Part shown: positions 16,830-20,648 of the stretch, piece by piece
Numbering within the stretch: the stretch's first letter is position 1
Layout: every line of letters begins with the position of its first letter
IMG/VR virus record: IMGVR_UViG_3300047678_000116
Span: 1 to 20,648 of that record
From: a virus
DNA length: 20,648 bases
Strand: one strand, 5' to 3'
The notes under the pieces: model-generated
Told to the model about the DNA's origin: nothing
The model's input: the letters and a program-made list of their open reading frames with translations, nothing else
Database searches by the model: none
Made by a program: the position numbers and the translations under genes

Positions 16830-16868
16830 TAGTTTGTCCATTTGGGCACCATTCTATTGGAGATTGCA

Positions 16869-17438
16869 ATGAGCGACGAACAGCAGGCGGCGCAGGCCGC
16901 GCAGGAAGCGGAGGCCGCGAAGCAGGCTGCCGCTCAGAAGAAGGCGGACGAAGCCGCTGCCAAGAAGGCAGCCGCGGCGGAAGCCAAGGCCAAGAAGGAC
17001 GCCGAAAAGGCGGCCGCCAAGGAAGCCAAGGAAGCGGAGAAGAAGGCCGCTGCCGAGCGCAAGGAGCAGGAGAAGGCCGAGAAGGCCGCTGCGAAGGAGA
17101 AGGCCAAGGCCGACGCCATTGCCGCTCGCGAAGCTGCCAAGATGCCCGAGCAGAACGGCATCCGCCGTCCGAAGCCCGACGGCCTCTGCGGCAAGGCCTG
17201 GGCGATCTTCGACCAGATCTCCGCCACCAACGGCTCGCCCGCTTCGATCGGTGAATCGATGGAGGTCGCCAAGGCCCAGGGTCTCAACGAAGCGAACGTC
17301 CGGGCGGAATACGCTCGCTGGCGCAAGTTCTTCGGTGTGGTCGGCCGCGTGGAAGATCCGCGCAAGCCGGCGAAGCCCGAAACCCCGCCTGCCGCTCCCG
17401 CTCCGGAAGCGCCCCCGGCACCGCCGGTCGAAGGCTAA
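16869..17438 (+). CDS. Lys/Ala-rich coiled-coil protein with the PEQNGI-WRKF domain
   Basis: 189 residues from the ATG at 16869 (GGAG upstream); a longer frame would need a TTG at 16842. Residues 1-91 are almost pure Ala, Lys, Glu and Gln, forming a long charged helix like histone H1-type or TolA-type repeats. Residues 93-156 form a domain starting PEQNGIRRP and ending WRKFFGV, about 40% identical without gaps to residues 120-184 of the leftward gene at 179-745. The tail is Pro/Ala-rich (ETPPAAPAPEAPPAPPVEG). A basic helix joined to a small conserved domain suggests a DNA-condensing or chromosome-binding phage protein; this is inference. It has its own gap upstream and a strong inverted repeat downstream. 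Confidence 0.8.
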   Translation: MSDEQQAAQAAQEAEAAKQAAAQKKADEAAAKKAAAAEAKAKKDAEKAAAKEAKEAEKKAAAERKEQEKAEKAAAKEKAKADAIAAREAAKMPEQNGIRRPKPDGLCGKAWAIFDQISATNGSPASIGESMEVAKAQGLNEANVRAEYARWRKFFGVVGRVEDPRKPAKPETPPAAPAPEAPPAPPVEG

Positions 17439-17512: not shown

Positions 17513-18235
17513 GTGATTAACAAACAACCAATCGAGAAGCGTGAACCCTCCTATGAGGGGACGCTCCAAGTCCATTCCATCTTTAAGACGATCCAAGGCG
17601 AGGGCCCGTTCTGTGGCACGCCTTGCGTTTTCGTGAGGTTGGCAGGATGCAACCTTCAGTGCCCCGCGTGCGACACTGACTACACATCGAACCGGCAGAT
17701 CATGCAGCCCGGTGAGATCCTGTTCCACGTCAACGAGCTTTGGCGTGCCGAACGCTACCGCCGAGGGCTTGTGGTCATCACGGGTGGCGAACCGTTCAGA
17801 CAGCACATCGGTGAGCTGATTGCCGTCCTGACGATGTCGAACTACTATGTGCAGATCGAATCGAACGGCACGATGAACCCGCCGGCCGGTCCGTGGCGGA
17901 CGGACACGTCCAAGCGTGAAGGTGCGTTCCTTGTCGTCAGCCCCAAGACCGGCAAGCTCAACCCGCTGGCGCTCGAGGAAGCGTGCGCGCTGAAGTATGT
18001 CGTGGCCGAGGGTGACATTCATACCGACGGGCTACCGCTGCACGCGCTGGACCATCCGTCGAATCCCTACCCGGCGCGTCCGCCGTTTGGCTGGGACCGC
18101 CCGGTCTATGTGCAACCGATGGATGCTAAGTCCACAGCTCAGAACCATCGCAACACCGCCGCAGCGGTGCAGTCGTGCCTGGACCACGGCTACATCCTCC
18201 AACTTCAGGTCCACAAATATATCGGAGTCGAATAA
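17513..18235 (+). CDS. queE: 7-carboxy-7-deazaguanine synthase QueE
   Basis: 240 residues from a GTG start behind CGGAGG. A radical SAM enzyme that converts 6-carboxy-tetrahydropterin to 7-carboxy-7-deazaguanine, the third step of preQ0 synthesis. Visible features are QGEGPFCGTP at 28-37, the CX3CX2C cluster C46, C50, C53 in LAGCNLQCPACDTDYT, and GGEPF at 91-95, which helps bind SAM. Length is normal for QueE. The following queC overlaps its TAA (TAATG). In bacteria this pathway serves tRNA queuosine; in phages with queC, queD, queE and folE together it usually serves DNA modification, a role inferred here. Confidence 0.93.
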   Translation: MINKQPIEKREPSYEGTLQVHSIFKTIQGEGPFCGTPCVFVRLAGCNLQCPACDTDYTSNRQIMQPGEILFHVNELWRAERYRRGLVVITGGEPFRQHIGELIAVLTMSNYYVQIESNGTMNPPAGPWRTDTSKREGAFLVVSPKTGKLNPLALEEACALKYVVAEGDIHTDGLPLHALDHPSNPYPARPPFGWDRPVYVQPMDAKSTAQNHRNTAAAVQSCLDHGYILQLQVHKYIGVE

Positions 18236-18999
18236 TGGATAAAGCACTTGTCGTTCTGTCCGGCGGGCAGGACTCGGTCACCTGTCTGTTCTGGGCGATG
18301 AAGGAATTCAGCGAGGTCCATGCGATCACGTTCGATTACAACCAGCGCCACCGCATCGAAATTGATGCTGCAATCAAGACCGCTGAGATGGCGGGGGTTG
18401 CGTCCCATGAAGTCGTCGTGCTGGGCCCCGTGCTCGCTGGCAAGTCCCCTCTCACCAATCCCGACGAGCAGCTCGAGAAATACGAGTCGCACGAGCAGAT
18501 GGAAGCGGTGATCGGCGACCGTCGCGAACTGACGTTCGTTCCGATGCGCAATGCGCTGTTCCTCACCATTGCTGCCAACCGTGCGGAAGTGCTGGGCTGC
18601 AACGTGATCGTCACCGGCGTCTGCCAGATGGACAACGCCAACTATGATGACTGCCGCGAGGTGTTTATCGACAGCATGAACGACATGATCGAACATGCGC
18701 TCGGGTATGACCACAGGGGTGATCTGGACGCCGGCATCAGCATTGCGGCACCGCTGATGGACCTCACGAAGGCAGACACGGTGCGCCTGGCGCAGGAGCT
18801 TCCGGGCTGCTGGGAAGCGCTTGCCTACAGCCACACGTCCTACGATGGGACGTATCCGCCGACCGACAACAATCACTCCAACGTCCTGCGAGCGCAAGGG
18901 TTTCTGGATGCAGGGTTCCCCGACCCGCTGGTCCTGCGCGCTTACGACGAGGGTCTGATGGCGCTGCCGGATACCCCGAACTACGACGCCCATCGCTGA
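18235..18999 (+). CDS. queC: 7-cyano-7-deazaguanine (preQ0) synthase QueC, zinc cysteines absent
   Basis: 254 residues from the ATG that overlaps the queE stop; CGGAG lies eight bases ahead. QueC makes preQ0 from 7-carboxy-7-deazaguanine, ammonia and ATP. The PP-loop SGGQDS is at 9-14, followed by AITFDYNQRHRIE and FVPMRNALFLTIAANRAE, both typical. Ordinary QueC ends with a Cys...CxxCxxC zinc site before LRxxGF; here the matching stretch is SHTSYDGTYPPTDNNHSNVL, so the four positions are S202, T210, N213 and N216. The flanking SHT.Y.G and LRAQGFLDAGFPDP remain. This may be a phage lineage that folds without zinc or a divergent activity. It overlaps the next gene (TGATG). Confidence 0.9.
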   Translation: MDKALVVLSGGQDSVTCLFWAMKEFSEVHAITFDYNQRHRIEIDAAIKTAEMAGVASHEVVVLGPVLAGKSPLTNPDEQLEKYESHEQMEAVIGDRRELTFVPMRNALFLTIAANRAEVLGCNVIVTGVCQMDNANYDDCREVFIDSMNDMIEHALGYDHRGDLDAGISIAAPLMDLTKADTVRLAQELPGCWEALAYSHTSYDGTYPPTDNNHSNVLRAQGFLDAGFPDPLVLRAYDEGLMALPDTPNYDAHR

Positions 19000-19412
19000 T
19001 GGACATCGTTAGCCATGCGGTGGCGGGTGCAGCGGTTGGCGCTGCATTCGGCCATCCCATCCTTGGCGTCGTCTTTGGAGTGCTGCCCGATCTGGTGCTG
19101 CTAACCCCCAAGCGCTTGACCCTGCCCCCAGCGCGCTACAGCGCCACGCACAGCGCGTTGTTCGTTGCGGGGGCAGGGTTGCTAGGGTGGCTGGCGTTCG
19201 CCACTGTGGTGCCGCTGCTGGCGGTGCTGTCGCACATCCTGTTGGATCTCCCAACGCACGGGCGCCGCTGGGGCCCGCAACTCCTTTACCCGTTCAGCCA
19301 CCGCGTGTATAGCTACGGAACTGAATGGGAATGGTTCAATCGATCCTGGTGGCAGGGTCTCGCTCTAACCCTCTTGTGGAGTCTCGCATGGCTGTTCGTC
19401 ACACTCAAGTAA
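18999..19412 (+). CDS. YdjM-like membrane-bound putative metal-dependent hydrolase
   Basis: 137 residues with three to four membrane helices (about 7-33, 52-85, 119-135). His/Asp residues sit where YdjM-type (PF04307-like) hydrolases have them: H6 near the N-terminus, D31 in VLPDL, H51, then SHILLDLPTHG with H79, D83 and H87, and LYPFSHRVYSYG. Family members are inner-membrane proteins with a possible zinc-dependent hydrolase site; their substrates are mostly unknown. The start overlaps the queC stop (TGATG) and the end overlaps the next gene by 25 bp, so it is fully embedded in the preQ0 operon. Whether it takes part in base metabolism, lysis or host-envelope change is unknown. Confidence 0.75.
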   Translation: MDIVSHAVAGAAVGAAFGHPILGVVFGVLPDLVLLTPKRLTLPPARYSATHSALFVAGAGLLGWLAFATVVPLLAVLSHILLDLPTHGRRWGPQLLYPFSHRVYSYGTEWEWFNRSWWQGLALTLLWSLAWLFVTLK

Positions 19413-19684
19413 GGCACTGGCTGCCTATCATCACCTTCTGCCCGGTGAACCATCTTCCCGACCTCATTTACGTCGAGGTGGCGTTCCGCGACGACACGCT
19501 GGACGATAGGGCGCCGGTCCATGAGCTCTACGGGATCCGCAAGCGCATTCGCAAGGTTGCGCAGTTCAAGAAGAAGTTCATGGAAGACATCGCTGCGGAC
19601 CTGTTCCGTGAATTCAATACCTGCGACTATGTCACGGTGACGCTTGCGTTCGGCCGGCATGTGGTCACGCACTCGGAGGACTGA
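19388..19684 (+). CDS. Small QueF-like T-fold protein (98 aa)
   Basis: 98 residues from the ATG at 19388, with GGAG upstream. FCPVNHLPDLIYVEVAF aligns with the QueF active-site region CPVTxQPD: C18 and D25 are spaced seven apart, as are the nucleophile Cys and catalytic Asp of QueF. FMEDIAADLFREF corresponds to the QueF FHExxxNxIxxDL helix, with Glu kept and His replaced by Met. The NADPH motif ExKSxK is replaced by ELYGIRKRIRK. Size and motif loss recall archaeal QueF-like amidinotransferases, which turn the preQ0 nitrile into an amidine. A role in making a deoxy-archaeosine-type or reduced base is therefore possible but inferred. It overlaps the membrane gene and is followed by queD after one base. 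Confidence 0.7.
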   Translation: MAVRHTQVRHWLPIITFCPVNHLPDLIYVEVAFRDDTLDDRAPVHELYGIRKRIRKVAQFKKKFMEDIAADLFREFNTCDYVTVTLAFGRHVVTHSED

Positions 19685-19685
19685 A

Positions 19686-20147
19686 ATGCACCGCGTCACC
19701 AAAACCTACGGTCATGAACTTGGCCTGTCCGCAACCTTCCGCCAACCTCAGGCAACCAGCCATTGCCGCTTCATCCACGGCTATGCGCTGGGCTTCAAGA
19801 TCGTGTTTGAATCTGACACGCTTGACGGCAACGGATGGGTGAAAGACTTCGGTTCGCTCAAGGCGCTCAAGCAACGCTTGTGCGACACCTTCGACCACAA
19901 GCTGCTCCTGGCGCAGGACGATCCCTACCTCCAGCATCTCCAGGAAGCGCTGAGCTTCAATGGTGCGCCACTGCTGGCTGACATCGTTGTCGTGCCGAAG
20001 GTCGGGTGCGAGTCGTTCGCTGAGATGGTGTATGGCTGGGCGGTCGAGACCATCACCCCGCCGGAATACCAGCGAGGCGTCCGCGTCACTGAAGTTGAAT
20101 GCAGGGAGCACGCGGGGAACGCGGCCTCTTACTTGGGGAACTACTGA
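19686..20147 (+). CDS. queD: QueD-like 6-carboxy-tetrahydropterin synthase with altered zinc site
   Basis: 153 residues with CGGAGG before the start. The 6-pyruvoyl-tetrahydropterin-synthase T-fold is recognisable: SHCRFIHGYALGFKIVFE, WVKDFGSLKALK, TFDHKLLL and the late VECREH. C27 sits at the catalytic Cys position and FDHK supplies the catalytic Asp-His pair. The usual zinc triad differs: the first His of the F.AAH motif is Phe18, and HGH is H31-G-Y33. Similar sequences are annotated as QueD in other phages as far as I recall. It would make 6-carboxy-tetrahydropterin for QueE. A reassigned metal site (H10, H26 or H31) or other substrate is possible. The stop overlaps the next ATG (TGATG). 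Confidence 0.8.
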   Translation: MHRVTKTYGHELGLSATFRQPQATSHCRFIHGYALGFKIVFESDTLDGNGWVKDFGSLKALKQRLCDTFDHKLLLAQDDPYLQHLQEALSFNGAPLLADIVVVPKVGCESFAEMVYGWAVETITPPEYQRGVRVTEVECREHAGNAASYLGNY

Positions 20148-20648
20148 TGGCTGAACAGGTTTACGATACGCTCGGGGTCCTGGACCTCGCTGGTGACATG
20201 CAGAACCGCATCCTCACCAAGTTCGACCGGGGGCACCGCCCGATCAAGGTTTATGCGGTTCCGACCGCCGGCATTGCAGCGCGCTTGGCGCTGTTCGCGC
20301 TGGACGATGTGCAAGCGTTCGTCGTTGAGGACGACTGGACCAAGGCGGACGTCATTGTTGACGACCTGATCGACACCGGCAAGACGATGGAACGCTTCGG
20401 CGACCATTACTTCGAGGCGCTTATCGACAAGCGTAGCTGGGAGCACGGTGACGCCTGGGTCGTGTGGCCTTGGGAGGGGAACGGAAGTGCAGGGATCGAA
20501 GATCACATTGTTCGACTTCTTCAGTATGTCGGGGAAGACCCTTCGCGTGGCGGACTGGCAGAAACGCCCGCTCGCGTTGCTAAGGCGTGGAAGGAATGGT
20601 GCGCGGGTTACGACATGGACCCGAAGGACATCCTGAAGACGTTCGAGG
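20147..20648 (+). CDS. folE: Phosphoribosyltransferase-GTP cyclohydrolase I fusion, cut by window end
   Basis: The frame is open from the ATG at 20147 (TGATG overlap) to the last base, 167 residues so far. Residues 1-110 form a compact type I phosphoribosyltransferase: VYAVPTAGIAARLAL, the PRPP loop VIVDDLIDTGKTM at 69-81, and WVVWPWE at 104-110, a common end of such domains. Residues about 115-167 start a FolE domain (GIEDHIVRLLQYVGEDPSRG, then TPARVAKAWKEWCAGYD). FolE makes dihydroneopterin triphosphate from GTP, the first step of preQ0 synthesis. The catalytic Cys/His zinc residues of FolE lie beyond the window. The joined PRTase might recycle guanine to GMP or add PRPP to a 7-deazaguanine base; neither is shown. 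Confidence 0.85.
   Translation, partial: MAEQVYDTLGVLDLAGDMQNRILTKFDRGHRPIKVYAVPTAGIAARLALFALDDVQAFVVEDDWTKADVIVDDLIDTGKTMERFGDHYFEALIDKRSWEHGDAWVVWPWEGNGSAGIEDHIVRLLQYVGEDPSRGGLAETPARVAKAWKEWCAGYDMDPKDILKTFE

Follow-up and report, generated by a model that had tools for sequence, protein, structure and literature searches.

The window analyzed here, which spans all 20,648 bases of an IMG/VR virus record, ends in a cassette of preQ0 genes that encloses a short open reading frame of 98 codons plus stop (Table 1). Translation of the window showed this ORF to be real: its start codon is identical to the annotated start of gp33 of Sphingomonas phage vB_StuS_MMDA13 (MMDA13; QHB80466.1), and it is under purifying selection, with dN/dS values of ∼0.19 against MMDA13 and ∼0.10 against the relative L002. 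A shortened or frameshifted version of a longer QueF was ruled out, full-length relatives normally having 88–98 residues (one has 128). Since archaeal QueF-L has 109 residues, the small size of the phage protein is not unusual.

Table 1. Genes of the cassette at the end of the window and features of the 98-residue gene.
Feature	Position	Strand	Basis
QueE (radical SAM CDG synthase)	17513..18235	+	
QueC, without glutamine amidotransferase domain and without C-terminal zinc cysteines	18235..18999	+	
YdjM-family (PF04307) membrane protein; final 25 nt overlap the QueF-L gene	18999..19412	+	
GGAG, putative ribosome-binding site, 6 nt 5′ of ATG	19378..19381	+	sequence
QueF-like (QueF-L type) T-fold protein, 98 aa	19388..19684	+	translation, family alignment, profile comparison, fold prediction
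Cys18 codon, predicted thioimide nucleophile	19439..19441	+	invariant in 14 relatives; role by homology (PMC5485725)
Asp25 codon, predicted general acid/base	19460..19462	+	invariant in 14 relatives; role by homology (PMC5485725)
E46-L-Y-G in place of QueF NADPH motif ExKSxK; Glu alone retained	19523..19534	+	E46, L47, Y48 invariant
F64-M65-E66 at QueF FHE position; Met replaces His throughout the family, Glu retained	19577..19585	+	
R90-H91 at QueF RGG position; H91 invariant	19655..19660	+	alignment
QueD (6-carboxytetrahydropterin synthase)	19686..20147	+	
FolE (GTP cyclohydrolase I), PRTase-like domain at N-terminus; incomplete at window end	20147..20648	+	

Among contigs containing enough of the cluster, the common gene order is QueE, QueC, YdjM, QueF-L, QueD, FolE, DpdA, DNA polymerase III beta subunit, and DNA polymerase. 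The window stops before DpdA, which follows FolE in L002 and MMDA13 and is also present on further family contigs. The order differs in L040 (DpdA-QueFL-QueC-..., then QueE-FolE), and YdjM is absent from the 6.4 kb of that contig. Cassettes of this type replace guanine in DNA with 7-deazaguanine bases, which give protection; DpdA itself was seen in relatives only.

Several of the neighboring genes have features of their own. The C-terminal zinc cysteines are lacking from the QueC proteins of the window, L002, L003, L022, L031, L033, L035, L038, HD01, Iggy, and RHEph04, which have an intact P-loop and the sequence SHTxYDGxYPPTxxxH where others have CYNG...CGxCxxC; they are present in QueC of L036, L037, L039, and L040. 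FolE carries an N-terminal domain of ∼115 residues in the window (20147–20500), as well as in L002, L022, and L035. The sequence DDLIDTGKT in it is a motif for PRPP binding (Pfam PF00156, E = 8e-4), and this domain might serve in the salvage of guanine released in the DpdA exchange. Nearly every member of the family has the YdjM-family gene between its QueC and QueF-L genes; within the phage record collection, this gene was found in MMDA13 only. Farther upstream, the genes at 16842–17438 (+), the product of which has an Ala/Lys-rich N-terminus, and 179–745 (−) have a C-terminal domain (EQNGIxRP...YxxWRKFxGI) in common with each other and with MMDA13 gp37; similar domains sit directly before QueE in related phages.

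Homologs of the 98-residue protein were gathered from IMG/VR with the exact pattern FCPVNxxPD and ORF reading, followed by alignment-based and pattern scans, whereas a genome collection queried with the window protein gave no match. The pattern recovered a phage family in which the proteins of L002 and MMDA13 are 96 and 84% identical to the window protein and those of other distinct phage relatives ∼40–56%; the median pairwise identity among 13 aligned sequences was 49%. Conservation of C18 and D25 among homologs had been set beforehand as a test of the original prediction, and both residues proved invariant in 14 relatives (the 13-row alignment plus L065) with pairwise identities of 39–96%. 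Residues invariant in the 13-row alignment include W11, C18, P19, P24, D25, E46-L47-Y48, R51, M65-E66, and H91, and the fourteenth member, L065, keeps all of the C, D, ELY, ME, and RH residues. A further search of the genome collection gave one contig with the QueF-L cassette, L041 (PBAL01000089.1), in a Verrucomicrobiales MAG bin; because L041 and the IMG/VR virus contig of L036 are both 55,901 in length, L041 is probably a phage contig inside the bin.

The family was then compared by direct alignment with the motifs of QueF, with B. subtilis represented by 4F8B, and of archaeal QueF-L, represented by the single sequence 5JYX from P. calidifontis. As had been proposed, C18 and D25 keep the spacing of QueF, being seven residues apart as in CPKTGQPD, and the same spacing is found in CPISKTVD of QueF-L; Cys18 is the counterpart of QueF-L Cys21 and B. 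subtilis QueF Cys55, and Asp25 of QueF-L Asp28. The remaining motifs are ESKSLK, FHE, and PRGG in B. subtilis QueF, to which phage Dp-1 is identical in all four; ELKSLK, SHE, and PRGG in phage HVTV-1; and EEFKK and LHE, without RGG, in 5JYX. The phage family has CPVNxLPD, ELYxVRK, FME, and RH replacing RGG. It thus shares with QueF the CPxxxxPD core of B. subtilis and Dp-1, the equivalents of E46 and E66, and similarity at the profile level, but has none of the QueF motifs ExKSxK, FHE (SHE in HVTV-1), and RGG whole.

The changes that the original prediction had pointed to in the NADPH motif and at the FHE histidine are therefore real: ExKSxK is absent and replaced by ELYxVRK, with the Glu alone retained, and FHE has become FME in every family member, again with the Glu retained. 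Archaeal QueF-L had been said to show the same kind of loss, and this holds for the NADPH motif, neither ExKSxK nor RGG being present in the phage family or in 5JYX, but not for the histidine, since the His-Glu pair of P. calidifontis QueF-L (ILHEE), the one archaeal sequence compared, is Met-Glu in all phage members. The invariant ELY, R51, and H91 likewise belong to the phage family and set it apart from archaeal QueF-L. A different, intermediate change was seen in the QueF-like proteins of L046 (Funsized), L055 (Rinkes), L051 (Mufasa8), and L045 (phi38:2), which retain E(S/L)K(S/A)LK and RGG and have Cys or Gln at the position of the FHE histidine.

HMMER searches with single sequences or small alignments against Pfam, PHROGs, NCBIfam, and PDB returned no link to QueF, and the 98-residue protein had no match to the Pfam QueF family (PF14489); a weak Pfam match to Sulfotransfer_2 (0.042) and weak phrog matches were dismissed as chance. 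Because single-sequence and HMMER searches are blind to the link, the earlier QueF call from sequence was not trivial. The link was recovered by hhalign, which aligned the family with a profile of 11 QueF proteins at a probability of 73% (E = 3e-5, score 34.1). None of 200 column-shuffled controls reached this score (best 22.7), the reversed family profile scored 11.6, and profiles of FolE, QueD, QueC, QueE, YdjM, and DpdA each gave probabilities <1%; against a single QueF-L sequence, the probability was 17%.

The T-fold that had been named beforehand as the second test was borne out by AlphaFold2 models of the window protein (pLDDT 84) and the L007 protein (pLDDT 94). Both consist of an antiparallel sheet and two helices, and the ten best PDB matches of each were all archaeal QueF-L chains (5K0P/5JYX), with a best E of ∼3e-4 and TMq up to 0.73. 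Matches to QueD, PTPS, and GCH-I were close behind, and the T-fold matches also included DHNA. QueF 4F8B was found at 1.8e-2 for the window model and was absent among the 50 matches listed for L007. Archaeal QueF-L (5JYX, 5K0P; PMC5485725) and the phage protein thus share a T-fold (predicted for the latter), the Cys/Asp spacing, and a length of ∼100 residues, despite a sequence identity to 5JYX of only 15–21% (TM ∼0.5–0.7); they also differ in that the archaeal enzyme uses tRNA. In BFVD, structural matches to A0A8S5S4R5, an 'Archeaosine synthase' of Siphoviridae sp. ctJ7x27, and A0A516LEE5 (E = 5e-11 and 7e-11, 40–44% identity) are predicted structures of phage entries from the same family. 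It is nearly certain that the product of the 98-codon gene is an enzyme similar to archaeal archaeosine synthase.

The position of the gene bears on its role. In phages 9g, NP1, MiCath, Vid5, PSTCR4, and VPv62, the slot between QueE and QueD-FolE-DpdA holds a Gat-bearing QueC, and no significant match to QueF-L or YdjM was found there; the DpdA proteins of these six phages are 64–70% identical to that of MMDA13. Gat-QueC, in which QueC is fused to a glutamine amidotransferase, is unrelated to QueF-L, whereas QueC of the window is bare and QueF-L is a separate gene. A plain QueC alone, without QueF-L and YdjM, occupies the slot in HD01, Iggy, and RHEph04, so that syntenic relatives show three architectures: Gat-QueC; plain QueC; and plain QueC with YdjM and QueF-L. 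Gat-QueC and DpdA of phage 9g lead to 2′-deoxyarchaeosine (dG+) in DNA, as detected by LC-MS, and the minimal gene set of phage CAjan leads to dPreQ0 (PMC6884629). QueF-L with YdjM thus looks either like an addition to a cassette for dPreQ0 or like a substitute for Gat-QueC.

In archaeal QueF-L, the cysteine attacks the nitrile of tRNA-borne preQ0, and free ammonium resolves the resulting thioimide to a formamidine (PMC5485725). In the phage, FolE, QueD, QueE, and QueC would convert GTP to preQ0, and DpdA would insert the 7-deazaguanine base into phage DNA in exchange for guanine. A thioimide would form when Cys18, assisted by Asp25, attacks the nitrile of preQ0, which could be the free base but more probably has already been built into DNA; the enzyme may be an oligomer resembling the archaeal decamer. 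As the NADPH site is missing, the reaction would be completed by ammonia and not by hydride, and the resulting formamidine, dG+, would protect phage DNA against restriction. The archaeal-type route is the most likely chemistry because the Cys, the Asp, and both Glu residues are kept and the NADPH determinants are gone, and an amidine product is favored because of the preQ0 genes, DpdA downstream in relatives, and the presence of QueF-L in the slot that Gat-QueC takes elsewhere. We consider it reasonably likely that this QueF-L-type T-fold enzyme completes a pathway of phage DNA modification by making dG+ from preQ0. Of the original prediction, the observation of a QueF-like protein stands, and its reading as an amidine-forming enzyme stands in part, supported by the T-fold and C18/D25 but not by a shared loss of histidine. 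Against this reading, QueF family members switch chemistry easily, and identity to 5JYX is low, with other T-fold enzymes close behind in the fold search. Since the FHE histidine that archaeal QueF-L keeps is Met here, the active sites are not identical, and this Met, together with the invariant His91, leaves room for another nucleophile.

One such nucleophile would be water: a nitrile hydratase in which water attacks the Cys18 thioimide would place a 7-amido base (dADG) in phage DNA. To our knowledge, no T-fold hydratase of this type is known, and relatives fill the corresponding slot with Gat-QueC, which uses ammonia, so we regard this as unlikely, even though the thioimide chemistry would be unchanged apart from the nucleophile, the His-to-Met change and invariant H91 set the active site apart from QueF-L, and dADG occurs in the DNAs of phages 7-11 and MED16, where its enzyme is not known (PMC6884629, PMC8306585). 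Another 7-deazaguanine reaction, with a different amine added to the nitrile or with decarboxylation of CDG and possibly with YdjM as partner, is an outside possibility. YdjM is directly 5′ of QueF-L in every member with the usual gene order for which upstream sequence is available, and the Gat-QueC loci examined have neither gene; L040, however, has QueF-L and no YdjM in its 6.4 kb. DpdL, from work by Cui et al. in 2023 on new 7-deazaguanines, is said to be a CDG decarboxylase, but in this cassette QueC is present and would consume CDG. Other amines are possible given that archaeal ArcS adds lysine to preQ0 (PMC11298593).

A non-catalytic protein that binds preQ0 and passes it to DpdA would agree with the small size, the missing NADPH site, and the retention of both Glu positions, which align with two QueF residues that we take to hold the base. 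It is improbable in view of the nucleophilic Cys and acid Asp that are invariant across a divergent family, and of relatives with 59–70% identical DpdA proteins that manage without QueF-L. Least probable, and very much so, is a QueF-like nitrile reductase making preQ1 with an altered cofactor site. The higher hhalign probability for QueF than for the single QueF-L sequence would favor it, as would the Dp-1 and HVTV-1 proteins, which were labelled QueF-L by HHpred and come from phages in which Hutinet et al. found mainly dPreQ1 (HVTV-1) or dPreQ1 without dG+ (Dp-1) (PMC6884629). In that 2019 work, whether phage QueF is a reductase or an amidotransferase was left open. The fold search favors QueF-L, however, and ExKSxK, RGG, and the FHE histidine are lost in every member, whereas Dp-1 and HVTV-1 retain ExKSLK and RGG; these two proteins are ordinary QueF by motif, and their dPreQ1 is therefore no argument against a phage QueF-L family.

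Returning to dG+ synthesis by a QueF-L-type enzyme, we tentatively offer an extension that is itself unlikely in its full form: YdjM and QueF-L may be a two-gene add-on that redirects a dPreQ0 cassette to dG+ or to an amidine carrying a substituent. YdjM, a membrane protein, would provide or channel ammonia or another amine in place of the glutamine amidotransferase of Gat-QueC, and the active site (His to Met, invariant H91) would be unlike that of archaeal QueF-L.

MMDA13 gp33 was annotated in 2020 by HHpred as a putative archaeosine synthase QueF-like protein, and the proposal that it leads to dG+ was published with it (PMC7472734); the window protein is its ortholog, with the same start and gene order and differing only by sequence divergence. 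The present work contributes an alignment of the family, a contrast of its motifs with those of the QueFs of dPreQ1 phages, the three slot architectures, and the correction concerning the histidine. The 98-residue phage QueF-like protein probably modifies DNA, and its family is the phage group truly without an NADPH site and hence the right one for testing QueF-L on DNA. If dG+ is made, T-fold enzymes would gain a DNA substrate, and phages would reach one base, from the same gene position, both by Gat-QueC and by QueF-L, and hence by two or more unrelated routes.
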